A DNA stretch of 64,000 nucleotides from Mycolicibacterium anyangense. Lineage in GTDB: Bacteria; Actinomycetota; Actinomycetes; Mycobacteriales; Mycobacteriaceae. The stretch lies in NCBI RefSeq assembly GCF_010731855.1, contig NZ_AP022620.1, positions 4,154,001 to 4,218,000 of the forward strand, in the 5' to 3' direction. Shown here one piece after another: positions 13,964 to 39,210 of the stretch. The notes below the pieces were generated by a model. That model was not told the origin of the DNA, searched no databases, and saw nothing but the letters and a program-made list of their open reading frames with translations. A program made the translations under genes and the position numbers. Positions within the stretch are counted from its first letter, which is position 1; each line of letters opens with the position of its first letter.

Positions 13964-13990
13964 GTATGACCTGATATGTATTATTGCGGC

Positions 13991-16793: not shown

Positions 16794-17546
16794 TCAGCGT
16801 CCCCGCCAGAAGCCTCCGGTCACGTTCATCACGGTTCCGCTGATCCAGCGTCCGCTGTCGCTCAGCAGGTAGTCGACTGCGTCGGCCACCGGTTGGGGAC
16901 CGCCCTCGCCGAGCGCGAAGTCTTCGCGATACTTCTCGAGTTCGCCCGGGGGCATCGGCTCACCGGTGGTGCCGATAACGCCCGGCGCGATGGAATTGAC
17001 CAGTATTCCGCGTGATTCGAGATCTTGTGCCAGCGACATGGTCATTCCGATCACGCCGGCTTTGGCCGCGGCGTAGGCCACCGAAATCCCCTCGCACGGA
17101 ATGACTCCCGCAATCGAGGCAATGGACACGATGCGCCCCCCACCCTGGGCGAGCATATGTGGCAGCACGCTCTGAATGCACCACCACGGGCCGGAGAGGT
17201 CGGCATCGATGATGGTGCGCCAGTGCTCGGGGTCGACCTTGTCGCTGGCCCGGTAAGGACCGTCGATGCCGGCGACGTTGACCAGGGCACCGACGCGGCC
17301 CATTGCCGCGATGGCGCTCTCGACCATCTGCGTGGTCTTGTCCGGGTCGCAGATGTCGACCGGGCTCCACCCGACGCCGAGGTCATCGGCCACAGCCGCC
17401 ACCTTCTCGGTCTGGATGTCGGCCAGGAAGACCTGGTATCCGCGGGCGTGCAAGGTACGCGCGATGCGCTCGCCGATACCTTGCGCGGCGCCCGTCACGA
17501 TCACCCCGCCGGACAACCCGGACGGTGTTCCTGTACTCAGCGTCAT
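16794..17546 (-). CDS. SDR family oxidoreductase
   Basis: A 250-residue classical short-chain dehydrogenase. It has TGAAQGIG at about 18-25, DICD after the second beta unit, a variant NVAG motif, and a catalytic serine with YAAAK near residue 158. NAD(P)-linked oxidation of a secondary alcohol or reduction of a ketone is expected. ATG 17546 follows CGGAG. A near-match to the GATTGTnnACAATC site lies 20 nt before the start codon, linking it to the GntR regulator at 25.4 kb. It is divergent from the GMC dehydrogenase gene. Confidence 0.87.
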   Translation of the reverse strand: MTLSTGTPSGLSGGVIVTGAAQGIGERIARTLHARGYQVFLADIQTEKVAAVADDLGVGWSPVDICDPDKTTQMVESAIAAMGRVGALVNVAGIDGPYRASDKVDPEHWRTIIDADLSGPWWCIQSVLPHMLAQGGGRIVSIASIAGVIPCEGISVAYAAAKAGVIGMTMSLAQDLESRGILVNSIAPGVIGTTGEPMPPGELEKYREDFALGEGGPQPVADAVDYLLSDSGRWISGTVMNVTGGFWRGR

Positions 17547-17566
17547 GCGTACTCCGTTCTCGCCAC

Positions 17567-17580
17567 GAATGTCGACAATC
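17567..17580. promoter_or_regulatory. GntR operator copy A (one mismatch)
   Basis: GAATGTCGACAATC matches the GATTGTnnACAATC consensus at 11 of 12 specified bases. It lies 20 nt upstream of the SDR start codon, the same distance as the exact copy before the SDR at 25278. Confidence 0.6.
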
Positions 17581-17769
17581 TACAAGATGCCGCAGTGGGC
17601 CAGCCCGCAGGGCGCGCTCCGAGGTGGCCACGCGGGAGCGGGCGTCGACAGCGGGGTCCTGGAGCCGTTGTCCCGGTGAGGCAACGGGAATGCCGCACGG
17701 CATGCGGCGAGCGGGGGGTGACACCCGGCCTGTCTTGTGGACATGCAGCAGGGTTGGTAGCATCACCAA

Positions 17770-17783
17770 GATTGTTGACAATC
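17770..17783. promoter_or_regulatory. GntR operator copy B (exact)
   Basis: GATTGTTGACAATC, with one more paired flanking base on each side. It lies 70 nt upstream of the GMC dehydrogenase ATG, probably at its promoter. Confidence 0.7.
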
Positions 17784-17853
17784 TGGAATTGTGCCGACGT
17801 TTCTCCATCGGCCTGGCCCGCGTGTCCGTGTTCTCGAGACGACGGGGGCGCTG

Positions 17854-19473
17854 ATGACCGCTGCACGGGACTGCGCCGACGTGCTGATCGTGGGCGCTGG
17901 CGCGTCGGGGAGCGTCGCCGCACTCGAATTGGCCACCCGCGGCTTTCACGTCGTCTGCCTGGAGCAGGGTGACTGGACCATTCCAGACGACTTTCCCAGC
18001 GGCAAGCCGCAATGGGAGTTGTCGCGGCTGAAGCACTGGAACTTCAGCCCCAACGTGCGCGCGCACCGCAGTGACTATCCCGTCGATGCCAGCGAGAGCC
18101 CCATCGAGCCGTTGATGTTCAACGGCGTCGGCGGTAGCACGATTCTCTATGCGGGACACTGGGTTCGCGCCCTGCCGTCGGACTTCCGGGTCAAGTCTCT
18201 GGACGGGGTCGCCGACGACTGGCCACTCACCTACGAGGATCTGCGGCCGTTCTATGACGAGCTGACGTACGTCGTCGGGGTCTCGGGACTTGCCGGCGAT
18301 CCGGCGTATCCCGACGAGCACACCTTTCCCATGCCGCCGCTGCCGATCGGCAAGTACGGGCTGGTGGCCGCCAAGGGTATGGACAAACTCGGCTGGCATT
18401 GGTGGCCAGGACCCAACGCCATCGCCTCGCGTGGGTTCAAACACCGTCTCGCATGCCAGCGTTACGGCACCTGCGAAACCGGTTGTCCGACCGGGGCGAA
18501 GGCCACGACGGACCTCACCCACTGGCGCGAGGCGATCGCGGCGGGGGCGGTGCTGGTCACCGGGGCGCGGGTGAGTAGGTTGACCGTGGACGGCGCCGGG
18601 CTGGTCTCCGGCGCGGAGTACGTCGACCGTGACGGCCGGCTCCAGCATCAGTCCGCGAGCGTCACCATGCTGGCCGCCAACGGAATTGGGACCCCGCGAC
18701 TGCTGCTCAATTCCGCGTCGGCGCGCTTCCCGGACGGCCTGGCGAACTCGTCGGGACTGGTGGGCAAGCGCCTCATGATTCACCCCCTGGCGTCGGTCTA
18801 CGGCACCTACGACGACGACCTCGAGAGCCACCTGGGCCCCACTGGGCAGTCGCTGCAGTCGATGCAGTTCTACGAGAGTGACGCCGATCGCGGATTCGTG
18901 CGCGGGGGCAAGTGGAACCTGATGTCGGCACCGGGGATGCTCAGGCATGTCAGCTGGGAGCCGGGCCGGGATTGGCGGGACACTATGGGTCCGTCGTTCC
19001 ATCAGCGATTGAACCGGTTCGGCCGCTACACCGAATGGGGTGTGACCATCGAGGATCTTCCCGAGGAACACAACCAGATCGTGCTGCACCCCACAGCAAC
19101 CGACTCCGATGGCATCCCCGCTCCGAAGGTGCGCTACACCCTCAGTGAGAACAGCAGGCGGATGATCGACTTCCACCTGGCCCGGATGAGCGAGGCTCAC
19201 CTGGCAGCCGGGGCGACGTCGCTCGACACGATCCCGGTGGTACGAGACAGTGGCTGGCATCTGCTCGGTACGGCGCGAATGGGATCCGATCCGGCCACGT
19301 CGGTGGTGGACGGCTATTGCCGCGCGCACGACGTGCCGAACCTGTACATCATCGACGGAAGCGTCTTCGTGACGTCGACCGGAGTGAACCCGACGGCGAC
19401 GATCATGGCCATCGCGCTGCGCGCGTCCCGTCGTCTCGCTGAAACGTCCTCCGCGCAACAGGTTTGGTCGTAG
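17854..19473 (+). CDS. GMC family oxidoreductase (FAD alcohol/sugar dehydrogenase, large subunit)
   Basis: A 539-residue flavoprotein. The ADP-binding motif GAGASGS is near residue 13, followed by CLEQG. There is a cysteine-rich segment (CQRYGTCETGCPTG, about 205-218). The C-terminal catalytic pair is the histidine of WHLLGTARMG and the asparagine of STGVNPTATI. The family oxidises primary alcohols or sugar hydroxyls. It resembles the gluconate-2-dehydrogenase type that works with a small subunit, and such a partner follows 7 nt downstream. I see no Tat or Sec signal. MftG, the mycofactocin GMC dehydrogenase, is an alternative identity but I have no specific evidence for it. ATG 17854 follows GGGGGCG. 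Confidence 0.85.
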   Translation: MTAARDCADVLIVGAGASGSVAALELATRGFHVVCLEQGDWTIPDDFPSGKPQWELSRLKHWNFSPNVRAHRSDYPVDASESPIEPLMFNGVGGSTILYAGHWVRALPSDFRVKSLDGVADDWPLTYEDLRPFYDELTYVVGVSGLAGDPAYPDEHTFPMPPLPIGKYGLVAAKGMDKLGWHWWPGPNAIASRGFKHRLACQRYGTCETGCPTGAKATTDLTHWREAIAAGAVLVTGARVSRLTVDGAGLVSGAEYVDRDGRLQHQSASVTMLAANGIGTPRLLLNSASARFPDGLANSSGLVGKRLMIHPLASVYGTYDDDLESHLGPTGQSLQSMQFYESDADRGFVRGGKWNLMSAPGMLRHVSWEPGRDWRDTMGPSFHQRLNRFGRYTEWGVTIEDLPEEHNQIVLHPTATDSDGIPAPKVRYTLSENSRRMIDFHLARMSEAHLAAGATSLDTIPVVRDSGWHLLGTARMGSDPATSVVDGYCRAHDVPNLYIIDGSVFVTSTGVNPTATIMAIALRASRRLAETSSAQQVWS

Positions 19474-19480
19474 GAGAGTC

Positions 19481-19876
19481 ATGATGCTGACCATCGAGCA
19501 GCGAGGTGCCTACGCGCGGCTGGCAGACGTTCTGATCCCGCCGACGGAGACAATGCCGTCGGCGACGCAGGCCGGCGTTGTCGACACGCTGATCGATCAG
19601 GTGCTGCGATACCGCCCGGATCTGGTGGATGACTTCGCCGCGGCGGTCGAGGTGTGCGCCGGTCGCGAGCCCGAGGCAGCGCTCGACGAACTTGCCGCTG
19701 GGCATCAGCGCGCCTTCGCGGCGCTGACGCTGCTCACCGCCGGCGCGTACGCGCTGAGCCCGGTGGTGCACCGCGCCCTGAACTACACCCCGCCGCCGCG
19801 CTCCGTCGTCGATGACCTCGACGGCTACGTCGACCTGCTGGCCGCCGTCGTCGAACGCGGCTTCCACACGCGCTGA
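19481..19876 (+). CDS. Small subunit-like partner of the GMC dehydrogenase (gluconate dehydrogenase subunit 3-like)
   Basis: A 131-residue, largely helical protein starting MMLTIEQRGAYARLADVLIPPTETMPSATQAG. The opening with DVLIP followed by a helical bundle resembles the subunit-3 proteins that accompany GMC dehydrogenases. It lacks the usual twin-arginine signal peptide, so if it is a subunit the complex is cytoplasmic. It lies 7 nt behind the GMC gene with GGAGAG as ribosome binding site, so co-expression is very likely. The family assignment is by pattern only. Confidence 0.65.
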   Translation: MMLTIEQRGAYARLADVLIPPTETMPSATQAGVVDTLIDQVLRYRPDLVDDFAAAVEVCAGREPEAALDELAAGHQRAFAALTLLTAGAYALSPVVHRALNYTPPPRSVVDDLDGYVDLLAAVVERGFHTR

Positions 19877-19905
19877 TCACGCGCCACGGCTGCAGGCCTC
19901 AGCAC

Positions 19906-21390
19906 TCAGCGGGTGGCGCGGCGAGCGATGTTGTAGAACCGGATGTTCTGGTATTCCTCGAGGCCTTCGGCGCTGCCTTCGCGGCCCAGCCCGGACTGCT
20001 TGATCCCGCCGAACGGTGCGGCGGCGTTCGACGGTACGCCCTGGTTGATTCCGACAATGCCGGTCTCGAGCCGATCCGCGACATTGAGTGCCCTGTCGAG
20101 ACTCTCGGTGAAGACGTAACCGGCAAGGCCCAATTCGGTGGCGTTGGCCAGGGCGAGGGCCTCGTCCTCGTCGCGGAATCGCTGAACCGCGGCGATCGGC
20201 CCGAAGATCTCCGTCTGGGCCACCTCGGCATCGTTGGGCACGTTGCTGAGCACGGTGGGTGCGAAAAAGTGACCGGCGCCGTCGAACTCGACTCCACCCG
20301 TCTCCACGATGGCGCCCCGCGCCGTCGCATCGGCAACCAGTCGCGACATCGTGGCGACCGCGCGGTCGTCGATCAGCGGACCCATACCGATGCCGTCGTT
20401 CAGGCCGTTTCCGACAACGAGGGCAGACATCTTCTCGGTCAGCCCTTCCAGGAAGGCGTCGGCAATGCCGTCCTGCACGAACATGCGATTGGCGGCGATG
20501 CAGGACTGACCGCCGTTGCGCATCTTGGCGGCGAAGGCGCCATTGACCGCCCTGTCGAGGTCCGCGTCGTCGAAGACGAGCAGTGGGGCGTTCCCGCCCA
20601 ACTCCATCGACGACCGCAGCACATTGTCCGCCGCGAGGCGCATGAGCGCGCTGCCTACCGAGGTCGAGCCGGTGAACGACACCTTGCGTACTCGGGGATC
20701 GCGCAGCACCGCCTCGGAGAAGGCCGACGCCGACGACGTGGTCACCACCTTGACCAGACCCTCGGGAACGCCGGCCTGCCTGGCCAATTCGACCGCGAGG
20801 ATCGTCGTCAGCGGGGTCAGGGCGGCGGGCTTGATGATGACGGGACACCCGGCGGCCAGCGCGGGTGCGATCTTGCGGGTCGCCATGGCCAGCGGAAAGT
20901 TCCACGGCGTGATGAGTACCGAGAGCCCGACCGGTGAGCGCCGGGTCAACAGCTGTGCCCCGCCGGCCGGGAGGTCGCGGGAATCGCCGTGCGGACGCAC
21001 CGCCTCCTCCGAATACCACCGGACGAAATCGGCTCCGTAAGCCACCTCGGCGCGCGCCTCGGCCAACGGTTTACCCATCTCGTGGGTGATCAGCAGCGCA
21101 AGCTCCTCGCCACTTTCCAGCAGCCGCTCATACCAGCTGCGCAGCACGTCGGCGCGGGCGCGCAGCGGGCTACCCGCCCACTGCCGTCCGGCCTCGTCCG
21201 CCTGGGCCACCGCATCGAGGGCCTGTTCCACACTGGCGTCGGGGACTGCCGCGATCATTTCTTCGGTGGCCGGATCGTGCACAGTGAAGGTCGATCTGGC
21301 CCATGCCGAGGGCAGATCGTCCAGCACCGCCTGTGCGGCCGCCAGCCGTTCGGGGTCCGGATGTCTCTGTGGCGCGGCCGTTGTCGTCAT
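19906..21390 (-). CDS. NAD(P)-dependent aldehyde dehydrogenase (succinate-semialdehyde dehydrogenase-like)
   Basis: A 494-residue ALDH. Catalytic N164 (TPWNFP), E263 (MELGGN) and C297 (GGQSC) are all present, with the FTGSTSVG cofactor loop. The closest look is GabD-type semialdehyde dehydrogenases, which oxidise omega-aldehyde acids formed by transamination. It overlaps the aminotransferase gene (ATGA) and is last in the ureohydrolase-DUF2848-aminotransferase-ALDH operon. It is therefore the natural enzyme to oxidise the aldehyde made by the aminotransferase, and possibly those from the GMC dehydrogenase or the phospho-lyase-like fusion. Confidence 0.9.
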   Translation of the reverse strand: MTTTAAPQRHPDPERLAAAQAVLDDLPSAWARSTFTVHDPATEEMIAAVPDASVEQALDAVAQADEAGRQWAGSPLRARADVLRSWYERLLESGEELALLITHEMGKPLAEARAEVAYGADFVRWYSEEAVRPHGDSRDLPAGGAQLLTRRSPVGLSVLITPWNFPLAMATRKIAPALAAGCPVIIKPAALTPLTTILAVELARQAGVPEGLVKVVTTSSASAFSEAVLRDPRVRKVSFTGSTSVGSALMRLAADNVLRSSMELGGNAPLLVFDDADLDRAVNGAFAAKMRNGGQSCIAANRMFVQDGIADAFLEGLTEKMSALVVGNGLNDGIGMGPLIDDRAVATMSRLVADATARGAIVETGGVEFDGAGHFFAPTVLSNVPNDAEVAQTEIFGPIAAVQRFRDEDEALALANATELGLAGYVFTESLDRALNVADRLETGIVGINQGVPSNAAAPFGGIKQSGLGREGSAEGLEEYQNIRFYNIARRATR

Positions 21391-22658
21391 TTCTGCTCCT
21401 GTTCGGCCAGGGTGTCGTCGAGGGCGCCGATGAGCTCGGCCAGCTCCGCGTCAGTGGTGATGAAGGGCGGACTCAGCTGGACGGTGTTGCCCCGCAACGG
21501 CCGCGCCACGAAGCCCCGGTCGAGCAGGGCGTCGGTCACCGCGACGGCGTCGTAGTCGTCGGTGAGAGCCACCCCGGCCAGTAGGCCGCACACCCGGACC
21601 TCGGAGACCGACGGTCGGGTGACATCCAGCCGTGCCAGCCCCTCGGCCAGCTGCGCCTCGAGTTCTTTGACGCGCTCGAGCAGCCCTTCGCGATCGAGAA
21701 TGTCGAGGTTGGCCAGTGCGACCGCGGCCGCGGTGGCGTGGCCCGCGTAGGTTGCTCCGTGCCGGAAGATCGGAGTGTTTCGCTCGTCGAGATAGAAGGG
21801 CTGCCAGATCTGCTGGCTGACCAGGACACCGCCGAGCGGCGCATACCCCGATGTGACGCCCTTGGCGAAGGTCAGCAGGTCGGGTGTGACGCCAAAGCGT
21901 TCGGCGGCGAACATCGTTCCGGTACGGCCGAATCCGGTGATGACCTCATCGAAGATCAACAGGATGTCATTGTCACGACAGAGCGCAGCCAGCCCGGCCA
22001 GATACCCCTCCCGCGGTGGATGCACGCCCCCGGTTCCGAGAACGGGCTCGGTCACCAGCGCGGCGATGTTCTCCGCTCCGATGTCGGCGATCACGGCCGC
22101 CGCGGCATCGAGATCATGCAGCGGGATCCGCGCGGTCTCGGGCACCAGCGACTCGGTGCCGTAGCCCTCGCGATTGAAGTCCAGCCCTGCGATGCTCGTG
22201 CCGAAGGCGTGCAGACCGTGATAGGCGTATTCGCGGCTGAGGACGATCGTCTTGGTCGACCTGCCCTCGCGCTGCCAGTGCCGCCGGGCCAGTTTGCAGG
22301 CGACCTCGATCGAGTCCGCCCCTCCCGAGTTGAGAATGACTTTGGCGTCCGGGATGGGTGACATCGCGGCCAGCCGCTCCCCGAGGGCCAGCGCCTTGTC
22401 GTTCACGAAGCGGCCGAAGATGTGGTAGGTCTCCAGCCGTTGCATCTGCTCGGCGGCCACCCGCGCCAACTCGTGCCGGCCGTGGCCGACGTTGGCATGC
22501 CACAGCCCGGCGGTGCCGTCGAACAGGCGCCGCCCGTCGGTGGTCCAGATGTAGGAACCCGCGCCGCGGTCGATCACCAACTGCCGACCGAGAACTGAGG
22601 GAACGTGTGCCTGCGCGGGCCACAGCGCGGGCCCGTCGAGGCGGCGGGGGGTGGACAT
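21387..22658 (-). CDS. Class III (omega) aminotransferase, PLP-dependent
   Basis: A 423-residue fold-type I aminotransferase. It has the PLP-phosphate region SGGADSIE, IFDEV with D237, and Schiff-base lysine K266 in TFAKGVTSGYAPLGG. The family includes omega-amino acid:pyruvate and polyamine:pyruvate aminotransferases. Start ATG 22658 has AAAGGA upstream; a longer frame to 22856 would overlap the DUF2848 gene. Translationally coupled to ALDH downstream, it supports a route amine to aldehyde to acid. The amine donor is probably produced by the ureohydrolase or deacylases of this locus. Confidence 0.9.
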   Translation of the reverse strand: MSTPRRLDGPALWPAQAHVPSVLGRQLVIDRGAGSYIWTTDGRRLFDGTAGLWHANVGHGRHELARVAAEQMQRLETYHIFGRFVNDKALALGERLAAMSPIPDAKVILNSGGADSIEVACKLARRHWQREGRSTKTIVLSREYAYHGLHAFGTSIAGLDFNREGYGTESLVPETARIPLHDLDAAAAVIADIGAENIAALVTEPVLGTGGVHPPREGYLAGLAALCRDNDILLIFDEVITGFGRTGTMFAAERFGVTPDLLTFAKGVTSGYAPLGGVLVSQQIWQPFYLDERNTPIFRHGATYAGHATAAAVALANLDILDREGLLERVKELEAQLAEGLARLDVTRPSVSEVRVCGLLAGVALTDDYDAVAVTDALLDRGFVARPLRGNTVQLSPPFITTDAELAELIGALDDTLAEQEQK

Positions 22659-22701
22659 GAGTAGCCGATCCTTTCGAGGATGAGCCCGGCTCGCAGCGGG
22701 T

Positions 22702-23412
22702 TCAGATCTCCGGACTGAGGGCGATGACTGTGTAGTCGAGCGAGAGGGTCCGCCCCCGGTGCGGATCTGCCAATGTCGCGCGCCAGGAGCACATTCCCGG
22801 TGTCGGTGCGCCGTCGATGGTCCCGGACAGGATGACGGTCCCGGGACCAGGCTCACGCCCGCTGCGTTCGGCGAGGATTCGTTGCATGTCCGCCGGCTCC
22901 AGCAGATGCCCCACCGTACCGGCTTGAATCAGATGTTCGGCGCCGTCGGCGGTGCGTCCCCATAGCCGAAGCTCGCAGTCGTCCCAGTGTCCGGCCACTT
23001 CGTCGAGTCGCCATGCGGCGTCGCCGATGACGTCGGGACAGGCTGCCTTGGCCTTGGCCATGTCCACCTTCTCGATGTCGAGGTCGGTGTGGTCCGAGGC
23101 GATGGTGACCAGCCAGCCACTGTGGGTGTTGATCAGTGCGAATTCGACTTCGCCGTAGGTGTCGTCACCGCAGACGGGAAGTCCGGTGGTGTGTTGGGCA
23201 CGTTCGGGCGGGATCCGGAAGATGGCGGGCAGCCGGGTGGGTGCGGGCAGTCCCAATTCCCGGAGCTCGGCGATGTGTGTGGCAACGCCGGAGGTGTCCC
23301 TGGCGGCGTAGCCGAAGTTGTAGACAGAGTGCACATCGACATCGACTTCGGCGGCACCGGTTTCGGAGTCGACGGTGAGGTGCAGGCGGGCTCCTCCGGT
23401 GTGTGCCGGCAT
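22702..23412 (-). CDS. DUF2848 family protein
   Basis: A 236-residue soluble protein. The early block SVYNFGYAARDTSGVATHIAEL is the DUF2848 pattern, and a Gly/Glu-rich strand (YGEVEFAL) follows near residue 88. The family is uncharacterised; it resembles fumarylacetoacetate-hydrolase-like folds, so a hydrolase or lyase role is possible but unproven. Its start codon overlaps the ureohydrolase stop (TGATG), which implies tight coupling and perhaps action on the same intermediate. No signal peptide. Confidence 0.75.
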   Translation of the reverse strand: MPAHTGGARLHLTVDSETGAAEVDVDVHSVYNFGYAARDTSGVATHIAELRELGLPAPTRLPAIFRIPPERAQHTTGLPVCGDDTYGEVEFALINTHSGWLVTIASDHTDLDIEKVDMAKAKAACPDVIGDAAWRLDEVAGHWDDCELRLWGRTADGAEHLIQAGTVGHLLEPADMQRILAERSGREPGPGTVILSGTIDGAPTPGMCSWRATLADPHRGRTLSLDYTVIALSPEI

Positions 23413-24383
23413 CAGTTGTGGCCCTTGGCCTTGGTGCCGAAGATGCTGATCAGCTCGTAGATCAGCGACGAGGCGGCCAACCCGGTCAGCTGCGCCCAGT
23501 CATAGCTGGGGGACACTTCGACGACATCGGCTCCGACGATGTTGAGGTCGGCGATTCCGCGCAGCATCCGGATCATGTCCAGTGACGTCAGCCCACCTGC
23601 TTCCGGCGTGCCGGTACCGGGCGCATGGGCGGGGTCCAGGACGTCGATGTCGATCGAGACGTACACCGGGACATCGCCGATACGTTCCTTCAGCCCGCCG
23701 ACGATCTCGGCGATGCCGCGCTCGGCCACGTCGACCGTAGAGATGATCCCGAATCCGAGTTCCGCATCGTTGGCAAGGTCTGCCTGCTGATGCAGATTGG
23801 CGCGAATACCGACGTGTGACAGGTGCTCTCGACTCAGCAGCCCTTCCTCGTGGGCGCGCCGGAACGGCGTGCCATGGGTATAGGGCTGGCCGAAGTAGGT
23901 ATCCCAGGTATCGAGGTGTGCGTCGAAGTGCAGCAGTGCGACCTGTCCGTGGACTCTGGATACGGCTCGCAACATGGGTAGTGCGATGGTGTGGTCACCA
24001 CCGATGGTGACCACCCGGGTACCGGCGTCGGCGAGTTCGTTGGCGCGCCGTTCGATGGCGGTCAGCGCCTCTTCGATGTTGAACGGGTTGGCATTGACGT
24101 CGCCGAGGTCGGCCACCTGCTGCACCTTGAAGGGTGAGACATCCTGGAACTGGTTGTAGCCCTGCAGGAGTCGGCTGGCCTCACGGACCGCCGACGGCCC
24201 GAATCGCGCGCCCGGCCGGTACGTCACCCCGGCGTCGAACGGGACGCCCAACACACCGACGTCGACATGGGACACGTCCTCTGCGCGCGGCAGCCGGGCA
24301 AAGGTCGTCAGACCGGCGAAGCGCGGCATGGCCTCCGAATCGGGCGGACCGACAAAGGGTGAGCCGGTGCTGTCTGAGCTCAT
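23412..24383 (-). CDS. Ureohydrolase (agmatinase/guanidino-acid hydrolase family)
   Basis: A 323-residue arginase-fold enzyme with all six dimanganese ligands: H131 (GGDH), D154, H156 and D158 (DAHLD), D245 and D247 (SIDIDVLDP). The DPAHAPGTGTPE segment is typical of agmatinase and guanidinobutyrase or guanidinopropionase rather than of arginase. It should release urea from a guanidino group to leave an amine, the logical substrate of the aminotransferase two genes downstream. It is first gene of a four-gene operon. An exact GATTGTnnACAATC site lies 72 nt upstream of the ATG at 24383. The true guanidino substrate is unknown; no urease is in view. Confidence 0.88.
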   Translation of the reverse strand: MSSDSTGSPFVGPPDSEAMPRFAGLTTFARLPRAEDVSHVDVGVLGVPFDAGVTYRPGARFGPSAVREASRLLQGYNQFQDVSPFKVQQVADLGDVNANPFNIEEALTAIERRANELADAGTRVVTIGGDHTIALPMLRAVSRVHGQVALLHFDAHLDTWDTYFGQPYTHGTPFRRAHEEGLLSREHLSHVGIRANLHQQADLANDAELGFGIISTVDVAERGIAEIVGGLKERIGDVPVYVSIDIDVLDPAHAPGTGTPEAGGLTSLDMIRMLRGIADLNIVGADVVEVSPSYDWAQLTGLAASSLIYELISIFGTKAKGHN

Positions 24384-24455
24384 GTCACTTCTCTTTCGTG
24401 AGGTGGGGGATATGAACCGGGGAAGCGGACGATCTCGTTACCATCCCACTCCGTA

Positions 24456-24469
24456 GATTGTGAACAATC
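24456..24469. promoter_or_regulatory. GntR operator copy C (exact)
   Basis: GATTGTGAACAATC lies in the 145-bp gap upstream of the ureohydrolase operon, 72 nt before its start codon. The next gene on the far side (SDR) ends here, so this site serves only the operon. Confidence 0.7.
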
Positions 24470-24528
24470 GACAAAGAGTAGCCTGCTGGGCCTGTCGCCA
24501 CAACTCGTCCATCGGGACGGCGCGGGCG

Positions 24529-25278
24529 TTAGCGGGCCAGGAAGCCGCCCTCGACGGGCAGTGAGATGCCGGTGATGTATCGCGCATCGGGTGAGGCCAG
24601 ATAGGACACCGCCGCTGCGACATCGGCGGGTTCGGCGATCCTGCCCATGGGGATACTGGCCACCTGATCCCGCGCGGCCTGTTCCGGGTCGGGCAGCGTC
24701 GCCATCCAATCGTCGTACAACGGTGTGCGGGTCAGGCCGGGTGCCACGGCGTTGACGCGAATCCCCAACGGCGCCAGTTCGATCGCAGCCGAGCGCGTCA
24801 GCGCTTCCAGAGCCCCCTTCGAGGCGCTGTAGATCGCCATGCCGGCTACTCCTGCGCTCGCCAGCCGGGAGCTGATGTTGATGATGGAGCCGCCGTTACC
24901 GTCGGCCATGGCACGGGCGCCGGCCTGAAGCAACCTGATGGCGGCGACGACATTGGTCTCGAAGGTGCTGCGGATCTCCTCGACGGGCACCGACAGCAGG
25001 TCACCGGTGTGGTCGACGGCGGCATTGTTCACCACCACGTCGAGAGATCCGAACCGCTCCAGCGTGCCGGTGACGACCAGATCGGCGGCGTCGTCGGCGG
25101 TGAGGTCGTGGGCGAGGAAGGTTGCCCGCTCGCCGAGTTCGGCCTGCAGTGCGGTTCCGCGTTCTGCGGATCTGCCGACCAGGACGACGCGCAACCCGTC
25201 CGCGTGGAGGCGGCGGGCGATCTCGGTGCCGATGCCTGAGGTGGCCCCAGTGACGACGGCGACTGCTGAGGTGGTCAT
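24529..25278 (-). CDS. SDR family oxidoreductase
   Basis: A 249-residue classical SDR. It has TGATSGIG at 10-17, NNAA, a catalytic serine in NISSRLAS and YSASKGALEAL near 155-165, and a C-terminal GGFLAR. NAD(P)-dependent alcohol/ketone chemistry is expected. ATG 25278 follows GAAAGG. An exact GntR-type palindrome lies 20 nt upstream. It is divergent from the gntR gene. Confidence 0.88.
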   Translation of the reverse strand: MTTSAVAVVTGATSGIGTEIARRLHADGLRVVLVGRSAERGTALQAELGERATFLAHDLTADDAADLVVTGTLERFGSLDVVVNNAAVDHTGDLLSVPVEEIRSTFETNVVAAIRLLQAGARAMADGNGGSIINISSRLASAGVAGMAIYSASKGALEALTRSAAIELAPLGIRVNAVAPGLTRTPLYDDWMATLPDPEQAARDQVASIPMGRIAEPADVAAAVSYLASPDARYITGISLPVEGGFLAR

Positions 25279-25298
25279 GGGCGCCTTTCAGGATGGCA

Positions 25299-25312
25299 GA
25301 TTGTCCACAATC
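25299..25312. promoter_or_regulatory. GntR operator copy D (exact, 18-bp symmetry)
   Basis: GATTGTCCACAATC extends to CAGATTGTCCACAATCTG with 8-bp perfect arms. It sits between the SDR (20 nt from its ATG) and gntR (98 nt from its ATG). This is the position expected for an autoregulated operator of a FadR-type protein. Confidence 0.75.
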
Positions 25313-25410
25313 TGTAGAGTAACACTGAGCTGCGGTATGATCCGTGTTCGCCTCACTACGCCCGATGGCAGCCGAGGGCGCACAGGGCCGCAGAACGAGG
25401 ATGGAGGTCC

Positions 25411-26100
25411 ATGGCAACCAAGCGGGCGCTTGCCGACGTCAACCCTATCGAGCCCGTGGACATCACGGCGGTGATCGCCGATCGTCTTCGAGATCTCTTG
25501 GGGCAGGGCCGATTCACCCCCGGTGAACAGCTCACCGAGGCGTCGATCGCCGCTGCGTTCCAGGTATCGCGGGGTCCGGTGCGTGAAGCGCTGAAACGGC
25601 TCACCGAACAGGGCCTGTTGGTCTCCGAGCGCAATCGTGGGGTCTTCGTGCCGATCCTCTCCGACGAGGACGTCCGCGACATCTACCGTTTGCGGGGGGC
25701 GGTGGAGGCCGCGGCGGTGACCGAACTGGTTCGCAATCCGCGACCGCAGACGTTCTCGCACCTGTGGGAGATCTTGGGCCGGTACCGCAAGAGTCTGCTC
25801 GCCCAGGACTGGGAGAGCGCCGACGAGCTCGACCTGATGTTCCACCGCGAACTCGTCTACGCCTCGGGTAGCCGCAGATTGATCCACGCCTTTGACACGG
25901 TGGCGGTGGAGACGCGAATGTGCATGCGCTACATGCTGTTCGGGCATGTCGACCATCCCGACATGGATACCTGGCACTCCGACATTCTGGAGGCCGCCGA
26001 GCGGGGAGACCTCGACGCCGCCCATCGGGCATTGGAATTCCACAACGAAACCGTGATCGCGGACTTCACCAAGCGTCAGCCCGACGAAGCGTCGGGGTGA
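25411..26100 (+). CDS. GntR family regulator, FadR subfamily (FCD domain)
   Basis: A 229-residue regulator. The N-terminal winged helix-turn-helix spans about 17-80 (PGEQLTEASIAAAFQVSRGPVREALKRLTEQGLL), and the C-terminal all-helical FCD ligand domain runs from about 90 to 220 with metal-site-like residues (DLMFHREL, HSDILEA). The start at 25411 has GGAGGT 5 nt upstream. FCD regulators usually sense small organic acids and repress catabolic operons. Four promoters in 17.5-25.4 kb carry its likely operator GATTGTnnACAATC, including its own. It is followed after 18 nt by the amidase gene, so both are one transcript. Confidence 0.9.
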   Translation: MATKRALADVNPIEPVDITAVIADRLRDLLGQGRFTPGEQLTEASIAAAFQVSRGPVREALKRLTEQGLLVSERNRGVFVPILSDEDVRDIYRLRGAVEAAAVTELVRNPRPQTFSHLWEILGRYRKSLLAQDWESADELDLMFHRELVYASGSRRLIHAFDTVAVETRMCMRYMLFGHVDHPDMDTWHSDILEAAERGDLDAAHRALEFHNETVIADFTKRQPDEASG

Positions 26101-26118: not shown

Positions 26119-27528
26119 ATGCCGGATCTGCGTGAGCAGGGCATCCTTGGTGCGTTGTCGCGGGCTCAGCAGCGTCGGGACCTAACGTCGAGCCGCTTGG
26201 TCGAGCTGGCCCTGCACCGCACTGCCGCAAGCGCCGACCTCAATGCCGTCGTGTGCATCGATGCGGACGCTGCGCGTGCCGCTGCCGACGACATCGACCG
26301 CAAGCGGACTCGTGGTGACACCCTCGGCATGCTCGCCGGCGTGCCGGTGCTCGTCAAGGACAACATGGATGTGGCTGGCCTGCCCACGACCCACGGATCG
26401 AAGCTGCACGCCGGCGCCGGTCCGGCGCTCACTGATGACCGACAGGTAGCTCGGTTGAGAGCCGCGGACGCCGTCATCGTCGGCAAGACCAATCTGTCCG
26501 AATTCGCCATGGAGGCGATCAGCGACAACCTGGTCTTCGGCGCGACGCACAATCCTTGGCGGCGCGGGATTTCGCCCGGCGGCTCCAGCGGGGGGTCGGC
26601 TGCCGCGCTCGCCGCCGGGCTCATCCCGGTGGCCACCGGTACCGACGGTGGCGGCTCGGTGCGCATACCCGCGGCACTGTGCGGTCTGCTCGGCCTGAAG
26701 CCGACCAGTGGTGTGGTCGGCGCACGTCCCGCCCGCCTGCCTGTCGAACTGTCCTGCGCGGGGCCGATGGCCAGCACGGTCGCCGATCTGCGGCTGTTGG
26801 CGCAGCTTGGCGCCGGGCCGGCGTACGGCGACCCGTCCTGCGTCTATGGCCCGGATCCGGGCTGGACGACCCGGCCGCTGGGAAAGGTGTTCGCGACCAC
26901 CCGCGTTGCCGGCCAGCAGCCGGTGGCCGCCGATGTCGAGGACGTATTCACCAGTGCCGTGGGGGATTTCGCGAGGGCTGTCGACCGACAGGCCCACTGG
27001 TTGCCGCCCGGAGTCCTGCCTGCGGCGGCCGACGAGATCTGGGCGACCATCTATGCGGCCGAAGATGTCTACAGCGTCGGTTCCGACCTGTTGCGCACGG
27101 GGCGGCGGCTTCTCGACACCCGGGTGCTGGCCTGGGTGGATCAGGGTCTCGGGGTCACGTTGGAGGAATACCTGGCTGCGCGGCAGGCCCGCAATGACTG
27201 CGTACTGGTTCTTGATCAGTTGTTGGCGGAGGGCAACCTGCTGTTGACCCCGACGGTGACCGCAGCGCCTTATCCGGTCGGCGGGTCCACCGGGGACACG
27301 GGCGGTTTGATGCCGATCGATCTGTTCAACACCGCGGCAATGAATCTCACCGGCCATCCCGCACTCAACGTGCCGGCCGGCTACGTCGACGGGGTGCCCT
27401 TCGGACTTCAGGTGGTCGGTCCGCGGGGCAGCGACCTGTGGTTGATCGCGCTTGCCGAAGTCTGGGAACGGTACCGCCCATGGCCACTGGTCGCTCCGGG
27501 TTACGAACCGTTTCTGCCGTCCTGCTGA
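26119..27528 (+). CDS. Amidase signature family hydrolase
   Basis: A 469-residue amidase. The Ser-cisSer-Lys triad is clear: K80 (VLVKDNMD), cis-S156 (SPGGSSGGSAA) and nucleophile S180 (GTDGGGSVRIP), with the 24-residue spacing of characterised amidases. It hydrolyses a carboxamide or acyl-amide. It shares the gntR transcript and lies within the island, so it probably releases an amine or acid from the imported compound. The last 28 nt overlap the convergent tetR gene. GatA of the tRNA amidotransferase is unlikely because no gatC or gatB is nearby. Confidence 0.88.
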   Translation: MPDLREQGILGALSRAQQRRDLTSSRLVELALHRTAASADLNAVVCIDADAARAAADDIDRKRTRGDTLGMLAGVPVLVKDNMDVAGLPTTHGSKLHAGAGPALTDDRQVARLRAADAVIVGKTNLSEFAMEAISDNLVFGATHNPWRRGISPGGSSGGSAAALAAGLIPVATGTDGGGSVRIPAALCGLLGLKPTSGVVGARPARLPVELSCAGPMASTVADLRLLAQLGAGPAYGDPSCVYGPDPGWTTRPLGKVFATTRVAGQQPVAADVEDVFTSAVGDFARAVDRQAHWLPPGVLPAAADEIWATIYAAEDVYSVGSDLLRTGRRLLDTRVLAWVDQGLGVTLEEYLAARQARNDCVLVLDQLLAEGNLLLTPTVTAAPYPVGGSTGDTGGLMPIDLFNTAAMNLTGHPALNVPAGYVDGVPFGLQVVGPRGSDLWLIALAEVWERYRPWPLVAPGYEPFLPSC

Positions 27529-29272: not shown

Positions 29273-29319
29273 GGTGAGGCCTTTCGTCTGTGCGGGTTGG
29301 GATCGACGACGCGATGCGT

Positions 29320-33154: not shown

Positions 33155-33171
33155 GTGCTGTGTCACAGCAC
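33155..33171. terminator. Tight palindrome over the dppB stop codon
   Basis: GTGCTGTGTCACAGCAC has 8-bp perfect arms around one base and contains the dppB stop. It could form a hairpin at the end of the transporter transcript, but no T-tract follows on the minus strand, so terminator function is uncertain. Confidence 0.3.
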
Positions 33172-34158
33172 GATTCGAGGATCAGCGGCGGCTTGCAGGA
33201 TGTCGACCACGGTGTTGATGGCGACGTATCCGGCCGCCAGGACCAGGACCACGCCTGCGGTCGCGGGGAAGTCGTCCACCGGAATGCTCAGTGCCACGTA
33301 CTGACCGAGCCCAGGCCAGGCGAAGACAGTCTCGACCACCAGTACCGCGGCGAACATCAAGCCCAGTTGCAGACCCGCCATGGACAGCGCGGGCCCGACG
33401 GCGTTGCGCAGGACGTGGCGTGTCATGACTTTCACCTCGCGCAGGCCCAGGGACCGGGCCGTGCGCACGTGATCGCCCGCGAGTGTCACCAGGATCGAGG
33501 ATCGAAGGACTCGGCCGATCGCCAGCGCAGGGCCCAGTGCCAGCACCGTGGCGGGCAGCACCAGATGCAGCCAGGCGTCGGAGAAGACGTCGAATCGGCC
33601 GGCCAGCACCGCGTCGATGGTCAGCATCCCGGTCGGTCCGGTCGGCGCATCCGACATGTCGGTGCGCCCGGTTGCCGGCAACCAGCCCAGGTGCTTGTAG
33701 AACAGCAGGATGCCGGCGATGGCGACCAGGAAAGAAGGAATGGCCCCGCTGACGGTGAGCAGCGCTCGCAGCGCCCGGCCGCCCGGCCACCGCAATGCGG
33801 AAGCCACGGCAAAGATGCTGGCGAGCACGAGTGCCATGGCGAAGGCGACGATGGTGAGCTCGGCAGTAGCAGGAAGGAACATTCCGAGATCGGCTTCTAC
33901 GGGCCGACCGGTTCGGATGGACATGCCGAGATCGCCGTGCAGGATGCCCCCGACGTAGCGTGCGTACTGCACCGGTAGGGGATCGTTGAGTCCCAGGCGT
34001 TGGCGAGCAGCCTCGAGCACGGCCTGGCTGGCGCCGGCCCCGTACCGGCTGCGTAGCGGATCGGCGGCGGCGAATCGTTGCAGCCAGAACAGGACTGCGC
34101 TCAGGATCGCCATGATCAGCGCAGCCGCGCCGATGCGTTTGAGAATGAGGGCGAACAC
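33163..34158 (-). CDS. ABC transporter permease, peptide/nickel (DppB/OppB) type
   Basis: A 331-residue inner-membrane permease with about six hydrophobic helices. It has the DppB-type periplasmic loop after TM1 (RLGLNDPLPVQYARYVGGILHGDLGMS) and the EAA-like cytoplasmic loop ARSLGLREVKVMTRHVLRNA. GTG 34158 has a strong AAGGAG that overlaps the dppC stop. Together with the next three genes it forms a complete importer for a peptide or peptide-like solute. Confidence 0.9.
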   Translation of the reverse strand: MFALILKRIGAAALIMAILSAVLFWLQRFAAADPLRSRYGAGASQAVLEAARQRLGLNDPLPVQYARYVGGILHGDLGMSIRTGRPVEADLGMFLPATAELTIVAFAMALVLASIFAVASALRWPGGRALRALLTVSGAIPSFLVAIAGILLFYKHLGWLPATGRTDMSDAPTGPTGMLTIDAVLAGRFDVFSDAWLHLVLPATVLALGPALAIGRVLRSSILVTLAGDHVRTARSLGLREVKVMTRHVLRNAVGPALSMAGLQLGLMFAAVLVVETVFAWPGLGQYVALSIPVDDFPATAGVVLVLAAGYVAINTVVDILQAAADPRIVL

Positions 34159-34166
34159 GTGGCTCC

Positions 34167-35030
34167 TTAGCGCCGGCGGATGAGGGTGTTGATGCCGTCG
34201 CCGCTGATCGTGGCGATCAGCGACAGAAGTCCGACCGCGACACCGGGCACCACCGGGATCCACCAGTTGTTCAGCAGCTCGGACATGTTGCGTGCGGTGT
34301 CAGCACCAAGCTCGGCGGCGGGAGCCGGCGCGCCCAGACCCAGGAACGACAGCGCGGCCAGGGTGAGGATCACGTTCCCGACGTCCTGGCTGGCCGCCAC
34401 CACCGAGGACGGCAGCGCACCGGGCAACAGATGCCGGACGACCACCGAAACCGGTCCTGCGCCGGCCAGTTTCGCGGCCTCGACGTGCGGTCGGGCGGCC
34501 AGCGCGACCACCTCGCCGCGGACGATGCGGGTGTAGTAGGGCCACCACACGATCGATACGGCGATCAGAGTGTGGAACAGGCCTGGGCCCAGCGCCGCGA
34601 CGATGGCGACCGCGAGCACCGGCGCAGGCAATGCCAGGAAGCCGTCGGTGATGCGCATGAGGACGGTGTCGATGCGCCCCCCGGCGGCGCCGGCGACCAG
34701 TCCGATGAGGCCGCCGATCGCCAGGCCGATGGCCACGATTGCCAGTGCCGACAGCCAGCTGGTCTGGATACCGAACAGGGTGCGGCTGAGCAGGTCTCGT
34801 CCGTTGTTGTCGGTGCCAAGAAGATGGCCCGGACTACCTGGCGGCAATGCCGGATCCCCGGCGATCTGAGCCGCGGTGTACGGGGCGAGTACCGGGGCCA
34901 GGACGGCGACCACGGTCACGATGGCGAATGCGCCCACCGCCACGTAGGCGCCGACCCGGTTGAGGGTGCGGGAGTTGCGTCCGGTCCTGGTGCGGATGGG
35001 TGTGTCGATCACTGCTGCGGCTACGGCCAT
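34167..35030 (-). CDS. ABC transporter permease, peptide (DppC/OppC) type
   Basis: A 287-residue permease with the N-terminal OppC-like segment, LLGTDNNGRDLLSRTLFG, and the EAA loop EAAKLAGAGPVSVVVRHLLPG. The start ATG at 35030 shares its A with the stop of the ATPase gene (TGATG), so translation is coupled. It pairs with the DppB-type permease downstream. Confidence 0.9.
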   Translation of the reverse strand: MAVAAAVIDTPIRTRTGRNSRTLNRVGAYVAVGAFAIVTVVAVLAPVLAPYTAAQIAGDPALPPGSPGHLLGTDNNGRDLLSRTLFGIQTSWLSALAIVAIGLAIGGLIGLVAGAAGGRIDTVLMRITDGFLALPAPVLAVAIVAALGPGLFHTLIAVSIVWWPYYTRIVRGEVVALAARPHVEAAKLAGAGPVSVVVRHLLPGALPSSVVAASQDVGNVILTLAALSFLGLGAPAPAAELGADTARNMSELLNNWWIPVVPGVAVGLLSLIATISGDGINTLIRRR

Positions 35031-37048
35031 CACTGTGCTCCGGGGTGAAGACAGGCCACCCGACGGGTGGCGCGGTCGGGCAACGATTCCCAACTCGGCG
35101 GCAATCCCAACCGCAACTCGAGGGCGGGGTCGGAACAGGCCTCGGAAGCGACGGGGCAGCGGGGGTGGTACTCGCACCCGTCGGGCGGTGAGGTCGGGGA
35201 GGCGGGTTCACCGCGCACCGGAGGTGCGCAGGCGCCGACGTGGGGGACGGACGCGATCAACGCCTGCGTATAAGGATGCTGGGGATCGCGGATGATGTCC
35301 TCGGCGGCACCGATCTCGACGATGCGACCGAGATACATCACGGCCACCCGGTCGGCCACCACGCGGGCGACGGCGAGGTCATGGGTGACGAAGACGACGG
35401 TGATGGCGAACTGGCGGCGCAGTTCGGCGATCAGGTTCAACACGGTCGCGGCCAATGACACGTCCAGCGCGCTGGTGGGTTCGTCGCACAACAGGATCGA
35501 CGGCGGGACTACCGTCGCGCGGGCCAGGGCGACGCGCTGTCGCTGACCGCCGGACAGCTCGTGTGGACGGGCGTCGTACACGCTGTGCGGGAGTCCGGTG
35601 CGCTCCAGGGCTGCGTACGACTGTGCCTTGCATTCCGCTGCGTTCACGCCGTGGTGGCGGAGGCGTTCGCGGAGCATGGAACCGACCGTCAACCAAGGAG
35701 TCAGCGAAGACCCGCTGTCCTGGAACACCATTTGAGTGGGCGTGGAGATATCGCGCTCGAGTTGTCCGGTGTACGGAGTCAGACCTGCCAGCACGCGCAG
35801 CAGGGTCGACTTGCCCGAACCGGACTCGCCGACGATGGCCAGGCATTCCCCGCCGACGAGGTCCAGATCGACGCCGCGCAGCGCCCGGAAGGGTGCCCGG
35901 CGCCGGCCGCGTTGACGCCGCTGGCGGAATGCCACTTCGAGGTTGCGGGCCGCCACGATGGGAGCAGCCTGCGTGGTTGCGGAAGGCGTCGGGACGTCCT
36001 CGCCCTGATCGGTGTCCGCGGCTAGGTCGGCCCGAGCCCGGTCCGCCACCGCTGCGGCATCGGCATAGCAGGCGACACGGTGAGCCTCGTTGAGCACCAA
36101 CAGGTTCGGAATCTGACCGTGACAGGTCTCGTGCACAAGCGCGCAGCGCGGCGCGAACGCGCAGCCGGCCGGGAGGTTGGCCGGGTCAGGGGCGCCACCG
36201 GCAAGTGCCGGGAGCGGGCGATCCCGCCGGGTGTCCAGCGACAGCCGGGAACGCAACAGACTGACGGTGTAGGGGTGCGACGGAGAGTTCAACACCTCGT
36301 GGGTGGGTCCCTCTTCGACGATGCGCCCGGCGTACATCACGGCGAGCCGTGTGCTGATCTGCGCGGCTACCCCGAGATCGTGGGTGATCAGCAGGATGCT
36401 GCAGCCGAGTTCGTCACGCAGCCGCGCCAGCAGTGCGAGCACCTGCGCCTGCACGGTCACGTCGAGGGCCGTGGTCGGCTCGTCGGCGATCACCAGGGAA
36501 GGCCTGCGCGCCACCGCCATCGCGATCATCACCCGCTGCCGCAGGCCACCGGACAGCTCATGGGGATAGCGATGCATGCGCTGCTCTGGATCGGGAATCT
36601 GGACTTCCCGCAGCAGCGCCACGGCCGCCTCACGCGAACCCGCCGCCTCGGCGACCTGATCGCCAACCTTCATGGTCGGGTCGAGTGAGGTCATCGGATC
36701 CTGGAACACCGCTCCGAGGTGCCCGGCTCGGCATCGGCGACGCGCAGCCGCCGATGCCGAGACCATGTCGGTGCCGGCCACCACCGCCGAGCCCGTCAGC
36801 TCCGGCCGGGCCGACTCGGGCAGCAGTCCCAGCAGGGTGTTGCCGAAAACGCTCTTGCCGGAACCCGATTCACCAACCAGGCCGATGATCTCACCCCGGC
36901 CGATGGTGAAGTCGACGCCGCGCAGAACCTCGGCTTCGCGGCCATTGCGGGTAAGGCGCACCCGCAGATCTCTGACCGCGACGTTCGTCGGGTTCACGTC
37001 GTCAGCCCCGGTGTTCACGCGCAGGTCGTCGGAGTCATGACTCATCAT
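35030..37048 (-). CDS. Fused double ABC ATPase of the peptide importer (DppD-DppF)
   Basis: A 672-residue protein with two complete nucleotide-binding domains. Domain 1 (about 20-280) has Walker A GESGSGKS, signature LSGGLRQR and Walker [10 protein letters not shown]. Domain 2 (about 350-610) has Walker [18 protein letters not shown] and CDEPTSALD. Each is followed by the cysteine-containing oligopeptide-transporter C-terminal motif (CAFAPRC; CEYHPRC). ATG 37048 is taken as start; GTG 37057 is possible. Fusion of DppD and DppF is common in actinobacteria and still gives one heterodimeric-like ATPase. Confidence 0.9.
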
Positions 37049-37131
37049 GGCGGTCACACTTTCGCGGCGGGTAGGCCCAGGGTGGGACAGGGTCACGGTT
37101 TCGATGGCCTGGCGTCCGGCGCCGCGCCGAG

Positions 37132-38703
37132 TTAGCTCGGCGCCTTGTAGGTCAGGCTGGCGAAGTCGGTATCCCACTGCCACGGCGGCTGGTGCTGCCA
37201 TCCGCTGTAACCCTTGCGCGCGGCGAAGGTGTCATAGACGTCGGCGAAGTTGATCCAGCAGTTGGAATCACGATAGGTCTTGCCGGCGGCGACGTAGAGG
37301 CTCTGCGACTTGGCGGGATCGGGCTCTTCGCTGCCTTCGTCGAGCAGCTTGTCGGCCTCGGGCACCGAACACCGCAGCAGGTTCACCGGCGCATTGGTGT
37401 ACTGGTAGATCCGCGACCAGGTATCCGGATGTGCCGCATCGGGATTGAAGAGCGTGACCAGCAGGTCGGGCCGCTGGGCAGGCTGATCGCCGAGCGCGAA
37501 GAACTGCGATGACGGCACGTCACGGATCGTTGCGGTGAAGCCGGCGTTCTGCAACGCGATCTGCACCTGATTGGTCAACGCCCGTACCGTGTTGTCACCG
37601 GCCTGATAGCCGATCACCACCGAGCCACCCTTGCTGCCGATGGCGGCGAGCTTGGCCGGGTCCAGCGGCGGGGTGTCGGACACCGCGCCGTCCGGCAGCA
37701 TGCCGTTGGGGTAGAACTGAGTGGACGGTGTCGCCTGCTCGCCGAACACGGTCTTGGTGATCGCTGCCCGATCGAAGGCCTCGTTGAGTGCGGCGCGGGC
37801 GGCGGGCGAGCCGAGGACAGGCGAGTCCGGGTTCACCATCATCAGCGCCTTGACCAACGCCTTCTCGTGTACCACCTCGGTGTTGGGCCCGCTCGCCAGT
37901 GCCTGGTAGTCCGACTTCGTCAAGCCGTGCAGCACCATGTCGAGCTGGCCGTTCTCCAGTTGGAGGCGCTGTACCGCGGGATCGGCGATGATCGGGATCT
38001 CCACCGTCTTGATCTGGGGCGGCGTACCCCAGTAGTACTTGTTCGCCGTCATCGTGTACTTGCTCGAGGGCACGACGCTGGTCAACTCGTACGGACCGGT
38101 GCCCGCGCTGTGGGAACCGAGCCATGCGGCGGCGTGGTCGTTGCCCGCGGCATGCTGCGTGACGGCAGTCGGGCTGGACATCATCGGCCCGTAGGGCGAC
38201 GCGAGGTAGTCCAGGAATGCGGCCACCGGCTTCTTCAGTGTGACAACGAAGGTCAGAGGATCCGGCGTCTGCATGTCGGCGACTTCGGCCAGCATGTAGC
38301 TTGGCCCGGCTGCCATGTCGATGCGCCGCTGGAACGAGGCCTTGGCTGCGGCCGAGTCGAACGGGGTGCCGTCGGAGAACTTGACGCCGTCGCGCAGCTT
38401 GAAGGTGTAGGTCAGACCATCCGGAGACACTTGCCAACTGGTGGCGAGCTGAGGTGCGAGCTTGGGGGATCCGTTCTCGTACTTGATCAGGCCCTGATAG
38501 GTCGAGGTCATGATCAGCAGACCGTCGGATTGGTAGTAGACATCTGGGTCCAGGGGCGCCAGCTCCGCGACGATCGGGGTGCGGATGACATCCGGGGAAC
38601 TACCGGCGCCGGAGGACGCGCTCTTACCGCCGCTACAGGCGGTGCTTGTCAGTACCAGAGCGCCCGCGGTGAAGAGTGCGGCGACATGCTTCGACTTCAG
38701 CAT
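37132..38703 (-). CDS. Solute-binding lipoprotein of peptide-type ABC importer (SBP family 5)
   Basis: A 523-residue extracytoplasmic binding protein. The signal peptide ends in LTSTAC with lipid-anchored Cys23. The family-5 signature region LAPQLATSWQVSPDGLTYTFKLRDGVKFSDGTPF is at about 82-116. Such proteins bind oligopeptides, nickel, opines or other bulky solutes, so the ligand is open. It is the first gene of the importer operon; ATG 38703 follows CAGGAG. Its location in the catabolic island suggests that it captures the compound degraded by the other genes. Confidence 0.9.
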   Translation of the reverse strand: MLKSKHVAALFTAGALVLTSTACSGGKSASSGAGSSPDVIRTPIVAELAPLDPDVYYQSDGLLIMTSTYQGLIKYENGSPKLAPQLATSWQVSPDGLTYTFKLRDGVKFSDGTPFDSAAAKASFQRRIDMAAGPSYMLAEVADMQTPDPLTFVVTLKKPVAAFLDYLASPYGPMMSSPTAVTQHAAGNDHAAAWLGSHSAGTGPYELTSVVPSSKYTMTANKYYWGTPPQIKTVEIPIIADPAVQRLQLENGQLDMVLHGLTKSDYQALASGPNTEVVHEKALVKALMMVNPDSPVLGSPAARAALNEAFDRAAITKTVFGEQATPSTQFYPNGMLPDGAVSDTPPLDPAKLAAIGSKGGSVVIGYQAGDNTVRALTNQVQIALQNAGFTATIRDVPSSQFFALGDQPAQRPDLLVTLFNPDAAHPDTWSRIYQYTNAPVNLLRCSVPEADKLLDEGSEEPDPAKSQSLYVAAGKTYRDSNCWINFADVYDTFAARKGYSGWQHQPPWQWDTDFASLTYKAPS

Positions 38704-39196: not shown

Positions 39197-39210
39197 GATT
39201 GCTGACAATC
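39197..39210. promoter_or_regulatory. GntR operator copy E (one mismatch)
   Basis: GATTGCTGACAATC matches the consensus at 11 of 12 specified bases. It lies 181 nt before the alpha/beta-hydrolase start and far from the importer ATG, so its target is unclear; it may be a distal site or a chance match. Confidence 0.4.

Follow-up and report, generated by a model that had tools for sequence, protein, structure and literature searches.

A palindrome shared by genes of a putative catabolic island and the neighbouring GntR/FCD regulator in Mycolicibacterium anyangense

The window analyzed here, a stretch of 64,000 nucleotides of the Mycolicibacterium anyangense genome (contig NZ_AP022620.1, positions 4,154,001 to 4,218,000), contains an island of putative catabolic genes for a ureohydrolase, an aminotransferase, a semialdehyde dehydrogenase-like enzyme, several oxidoreductases, and a transporter. 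Copies of a short palindrome, GATTGTnnACAATC, are located upstream of these genes, and one of them lies between a gene for a short-chain dehydrogenase/reductase (SDR) and the divergently oriented gene for a GntR regulator with an FCD domain. The comparisons described below make it highly probable that this GntR protein binds the palindrome, through which it would repress genes for the catabolism of a nitrogen compound and from which a compound of the pathway would release it. The regulator and the putative operators are as follows.

25411..26100, plus strand: GntR/FCD regulator that is proposed to bind the palindrome; helix VSRGPVRE, with A44 and S53 (Pfam GntR and FCD)
25299..25312, no strand: putative operator in the SDR/GntR divergon, exact copy, 18-bp palindrome (scan; conserved in M. 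parafortuitum)
24456..24469, no strand: putative operator before the ureohydrolase operon, exact copy (scan; promoter-like boxes upstream)
17770..17783, no strand: putative operator upstream of the gene for the GMC oxidoreductase, exact copy (scan; promoter-like boxes upstream)
39197..39210, no strand: operator-like site, one mismatch (scan; lies within 41 bp that are 90% identical in M. parafortuitum, whose copy is exact)
17567..17580, no strand: weaker candidate, upstream of an SDR gene, with one mismatch (scan; without promoter-like box)

Copies of the palindrome in the window, the genome and the closest orthologous locus

A scan of the window recovered what the first-pass annotation had listed, namely exact copies at 17770, 24456, and 25299 and one-mismatch copies at 17567 (GAATGTCGACAATC) and 39197 (GATTGCTGACAATC). 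No sixth copy was found in the window, even when 2 mismatches were allowed, and the count in 100 shuffles had a mean of 1.04 and a maximum of 4. The distances to the start codons also agreed with those given in the annotation: 20 nt from the copies at 17567 and 25299 to the SDR starts at 17546 and 25278, 70 nt from 17770 to the GMC ATG at 17854, and 72 nt from 24456 to the ureohydrolase ATG at 24383. The copy at 25299, located 98 nt from the GntR ATG at 25411, is indeed the most symmetric and widens to the 18-bp palindrome CAGATTGTCCACAATCTG.

The complete genome of 5,696,751 bp (5.70 Mb) was scanned with GATTGTnnACAATC and with the pattern read backwards. At a maximum of one mismatch, the palindrome was found at 8 places and the backward pattern at 0; the window holds all 3 of the exact genomic copies and 5 of the 8 (binomial probability about 1e-8). 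The remaining one-mismatch places, at 467254, 2314910, and 2977337, are each sited inside a long mechanically defined open reading frame and were for this reason not accepted as operators. With up to 2 mismatches there were 77 places in the genome versus 19 for the backward control; two-mismatch sites are therefore uninformative and could not be used as additional members of the regulon.

Within the genus, 396 genomes were searched for the regulator at E <= 1e-55. It was identified in 6 of them, including M. anyangense itself, M. parafortuitum (G224, 84% identity), G318 and G437 (72%), G261 (70%), and G052, where it is cut short. Four motif sites were located near the regulator in M. parafortuitum: an exact copy in the SDR/GntR divergon, one-mismatch copies before a gene for a solute-binding protein and in front of a DUF2848 gene, the first in a same-strand run up to the GMC gene, and an exact copy that is the counterpart of 39197. 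The comparison of orthologous promoters, as the first-pass annotation had suggested, thus revealed conservation of the divergon site and of the 39197 block, the latter as 41 bp of 90% identity surrounded by sequence that did not align by blastn. In G052, the orthologue match begins only at query residue 43-47 and adjoins fragments of an aldehyde dehydrogenase gene, and no motif was found at 2 mismatches or fewer in the examined stretch (L010); this locus (L037/L038) appears to be a relic of the island.

The left neighbour of the 39197-type site is the same transporter gene in the two species, and the right neighbour differs. The candidate targets of 39197 are the leftward ABC transporter genes at 38703-33163 and the gene on its right side. 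In M. parafortuitum, the right-hand neighbour is a glutamine-synthetase-like operon (L030:9995-14266) with glutamine-synthetase-like, C26 peptidase, aldehyde dehydrogenase-like, and SDR genes, a gene set that we take to resemble a gamma-glutamylated amine pathway; the M. anyangense orthologue of the glutamine-synthetase-like gene is located elsewhere, at 593779. It was also noted that a second 41-bp block, at 38774-38814, is 88% identical to M. parafortuitum, lies about 70 bp upstream of the gene for the solute-binding protein, and contains ACACaacGTGT, which differs from the GntR motif.

We consider four of the five sites well supported and 17567 a weak candidate. The regulon of at least five units proposed in the first-pass annotation is supported for four sites, with 17567 weak and the target of 39197 ambiguous.

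The regulator and its pairing with the palindrome

The protein encoded at 25411-26100 has an N-terminal GntR winged helix-turn-helix (Pfam PF00392, 71 bits) and a C-terminal FCD domain (PF07729, 69 bits), both above the cut-off, which places it by domain content in the FadR (FCD) subfamily of the GntR family. Residues D141, H145, H189, and H211 were invariant in all 15 aligned proteins, and fit the pattern of one Asp and three His that we take to mark a metal-binding FCD pocket. E. coli FadR matched the regulator profile over the DNA-binding part only, and FadR proper has an acyl-CoA-binding C-terminal domain and TGGT half-sites, whereas the protein studied here has an FCD domain and the half-site TTGT. 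The designation "FadR-type" in the first-pass annotation is therefore valid at the level of the subfamily, given the FCD domain and the metal-pocket-like residues, and does not extend to FadR itself. The sequence TTGTnnACAA within the motif corresponds to the TKGT/ACMA boxes of FadR-subfamily operators in the available part of Suvorova et al. 2015 (PMC4494728), and is present both at the regulator's own gene and at the putative targets.

The genome contains 20 FCD matches, and the protein at 25411-26100 is the only one with SRGP in its helix. To study how this helix and the palindrome are distributed, we compared GATTGTnnACAATC with a control palindrome of equal composition. Exact copies of GATTGTnnACAATC were present in 153 of 301 genomes of the family, and of the control in 13. 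Among regions of 13-20 kb chosen by the motif, 13 of 20 encoded an FCD-GntR protein with the signature SRGP[VL]RE at 1.3-3.3 kb from the site, versus 0 of 13 regions chosen by the control (p 1.6e-4); without G045 and G013, which had already been met by protein, the fraction was 11 of 18 (p 4.4e-4). In the opposite direction, regions of about 10 kb on each side (less in G013 and G060, where the contig stops short) were examined around homologues chosen by protein similarity in other genera. All 10 homologues carried SRGPVRE and 8 had an exact GATTGTnnACAATC nearby, while G061 had three one-mismatch copies only. On these grounds, the palindrome is very probably bound by the neighbouring FCD-type GntR protein.

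Other regulators also go with the palindrome: in other genomes it adjoins relatives of this protein that share 31-42% identity and the helix signature with it. In three other genomes (L059, L060, and L061), a paralogous regulator and the motif were found together, with sites at nearly equal spacing, next to genes for an aldehyde dehydrogenase 53-54% identical to that in the window and for aminotransferase-like and amidase-like proteins.

Altered sites in a clade of orthologues

No GATTGTnnACAATC was found at one mismatch or fewer in the stretches around the regulator in G318, G437, and G261 (L031-L036). Their sites are now AATCGTnnACGATT-like: G318 and G437 have an exact AATCGTAAACGATT immediately upstream of the solute-binding gene, and G261 has one in the corresponding position past the SDR gene, where the contig ends ahead of the next gene. 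A second contig of G261 has the same arrangement, and the divergons of all three have TGTAAATTGTAAGCGATT in common. Exact AATCGTAAACGATT occurred in only 1 of the 301 family genomes, namely G318, a draw that included neither G437 nor G261.

The helix-turn-helix residues that differ throughout between M. anyangense and M. parafortuitum on one side and these three orthologues on the other are L41I, A44P, Q51H/R, and S53G; residue 44 was left uncounted in G052 because of the late start of its match. With the R-x3-R-E pattern as anchor, A44 corresponds to position 28 and S53 to position 37 in the numbering of PMC4494728. As far as the available part of that paper goes, the K of TKGT is correlated with position 28, and position 37, equivalent to the base-contacting Thr-44 of E. 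coli FadR, falls outside the correlated pairs given for the FadR subfamily; the base favoured by Pro or Gly at these positions is not stated there. The altered core base, T to C, falls on this K position.

In the tree, the P44/G53 proteins of G318, G437, and G261 formed one group with a support of 99/100, and all 10 more distant relatives had S53. The paralogue G318pB was on a long branch and its placement was unsure, which did not affect the P44/G53 group. Since the distant relatives retain the old pairing, the new state would have arisen once, with the regulator and its sites changing together. We lean towards a natural operator switch, in which the half-site (G)ATTGT became (A)ATCGT along with A44P and S53G (as well as L41I and Q51H/R) while the divergon and its neighbours were retained. 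The co-change represents a single evolutionary event and is therefore suggestive rather than statistical proof. Orthologues in which recognition residues and operator bases have changed in step offer a natural experiment on the co-evolution of a transcription factor with its sites, and the putative switch is directly testable.

Promoters, alternative explanations and the catabolic genes

Upstream of the ureohydrolase operon, TTGTGG (24503-24498) is followed after 17 nt by TACTCT (24480-24475) and after another 5 nt by the operator; upstream of the GMC gene, TTGTGG (17735-17740) is followed after 17 nt by TAGCAT (17758-17763) and after 6 nt by the operator. We inspected 19 site orientations, of which 10 have a clear facing gene (4 in the window, 3 in M. 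parafortuitum, and 3 in the P44/G53 clade, with the gene in G261 assumed). Under a criterion fixed post hoc, with the sequences already seen, TTGnnn-17-TAnnnT ended 5-7 bp before the operator at 6 of the 10 gene-facing sites, a -10-like box alone was present at 3, and neither at 1, which was 17567. No promoter-like box was found in the other 9 orientations, which were the GntR-facing sides, the 39197-type sites in both directions, and the clade sites in the reverse direction. The full pattern had a frequency of 0.0006 at positions drawn at random from these regions and of 0.001 in shuffles. Facing leftward at 39197, TTGTCA-17-TATCGT has its -35 box inside the operator, and M. parafortuitum has TTGTCA-17-TAACGT; both were first spotted by eye.

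In the proposed mechanism, the protein encoded at 25411-26100 would bind (A)GATTGTnnACAATC(T) as a dimer, with one ATTGT half for each recognition helix. At the ureohydrolase and GMC genes, where the operator is located 5-6 bp behind TTGTGG-17-TAnnnT, over the likely transcription start, the bound regulator would block transcription; repression is predicted because the operator lies directly behind the -10 box. The regulator would also repress the divergent SDR gene and probably its own GntR-amidase unit, and a pathway compound (a guanidino or amino acid, or a semialdehyde) could enter the FCD pocket and cause release from the operator.

Several observations weigh against this reading. An FCD-GntR gene was missing from the stretch in 7 of the 20 motif-chosen regions, 5 of which came from the small-genome genus g3, and the expectation of such a gene within 1.5 kb of every motif copy proved false, with 0 of 30 loci and the positive controls detected. 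No site was found within the stretches examined for G050, one of the 10 protein-chosen homologues, or for the Streptomycetaceae-type L027. The site at 17567 has one mismatch and no promoter-like box, and no counterpart of its SDR gene (16794) was present in the M. parafortuitum stretches that were fetched. The site at 39197 has candidate transcription units on both its left and its right. Neither GntR-facing side has a promoter-like box, and no promoter was returned by a strict sigma-70 scan of 17500-25450; together with the post hoc criterion, this gives the promoter pattern a supporting role.

That the palindromes are chance matches is hardly credible. Two-mismatch sites are common, and a regulator is missing near part of the exact sites elsewhere, but the clustering in the genome, the conservation, the family-wide excess over the control palindrome, and the pairing with the regulator all speak against it; 17567 alone may be a chance match. 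It is also very unlikely that the adjacent GntR protein is a bystander and that the palindrome is read by another regulator, either a different FCD-GntR protein or a TetR protein of the island. Candidates exist among the FCD matches in the genome and in two further TetR genes on either side of the region, at 13976 and 27501. However, the SRGP helix is present in 0 of the 19 other FCD matches, this helix type accompanies the motif in other genomes, and the operator is altered precisely in the orthologues with an altered helix. A somewhat larger, though still small, probability is given to binding of the sites by the regulator as an activator or dual regulator. A mycobacterial GntR activator, Ms0535, is on record (in the available part of PMC4609117), and the divergon site lies 98 nt before the GntR start with no promoter-like box facing that gene. 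Against this, a protein bound to the operators of the GMC and ureohydrolase genes, immediately behind a -10-like box, would block the polymerase. The preferred reading remains a GntR regulon that acts as a repressor through the shared palindrome, supported by the scarcity and clustering of the sites, their conservation in the closest orthologue, the motif-regulator pairing, and the matched change of operator and residues.

A regulon of this kind would be of an ordinary, known type, well supported by the sequence comparisons, with the putative operator switch as its most interesting part. In the portions available to us, the FadR-subfamily regulons with 2-nt GT/AC spacing in Suvorova et al. 2015 (PMC4494728) have, as here, an FCD-type GntR protein, a GT-nn-AC core with TKGT/ACMA boxes, a divergon at the regulator's own gene, and several small operons; this regulator, its target set, and the ATTGT half-site with an outer G/C were not met there. 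HypR of Streptomyces coelicolor (available part of PMC6608401) is likewise an actinobacterial GntR/FCD protein with a small catabolic target set, and is a repressor with autorepression, as proposed here, but differs in its motif, CTNTGC(A/C)ATGTCAC, and in its hydroxyproline genes. Ms0535 of Mycobacterium smegmatis shares the GntR/FadR subfamily and a palindrome at its own promoter, and differs in its 26-bp CCTTGCATGCA repeat and as activator of a permease gene. Among the matches listed for the motif strings and for GntR combined with guanidinobutyrate, agmatinase, Mycolicibacterium, Mycobacterium, or Rhodococcus, no title or abstract opening described the regulon. The proposed regulon defines an operator, a regulator, and a target set for a GntR group that occurs in many Mycobacteriaceae-type genomes, which should help to assign functions to FCD regulators carrying the SRGP helix.

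The genes of the island are the following.

16794..17546, minus strand: SDR oxidoreductase behind the weak site (domain search)
17854..19473, plus strand: GMC oxidoreductase (domain search)
19906..21390, minus strand: succinate-semialdehyde dehydrogenase-like enzyme (3jz4 best; TIGR01780 546 bits, below the cut-off of 646)
21387..22856, minus strand: class-III aminotransferase (domain search)
22702..23412, minus strand: DUF2848 protein (domain search)
23412..24383, minus strand: ureohydrolase of the agmatinase/guanidinobutyrase/guanidinopropionase kind (3nip, 3nio best; TIGR01230 above the cut-off)
24529..25278, minus strand: SDR oxidoreductase, divergent from GntR (domain search; retained beside GntR in G224, G318, G437, and G261)
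26119..27528, plus strand: amidase, 18 nt behind GntR (domain search)
33163..38703, minus strand: ABC transporter genes for a solute-binding protein of family 5, an ATPase, and two permeases; possible target of 39197

The listed start of the aminotransferase gene overlaps the DUF2848 gene, and the true start is probably further in. The ureohydrolase was closest to the solved 3-guanidinopropionase and guanidinobutyrase, yet also passed the NCBI agmatinase model TIGR01230, and the aldehyde dehydrogenase was closest to solved succinate-semialdehyde dehydrogenases. Genes of the ureohydrolase, aminotransferase, and semialdehyde-dehydrogenase kinds are all located in one gene run, which we read as a candidate pathway from a guanidino or polyamine compound via a gamma-aminobutyrate-like amine to succinate. 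A polar-amino-acid-type transporter (solute-binding family 3, permease, and ATPase) is encoded between the ureohydrolase and SDR genes in G224 and G318. Further along the window, the minus strand encodes an acetylpolyamine-amidohydrolase-like protein (28187-29446; 3q9b, E 2e-71), retained in M. parafortuitum, and a 947-amino acid frame (29320-32163) with APH-type kinase and class-III aminotransferase domains and a weak M23 match in between.

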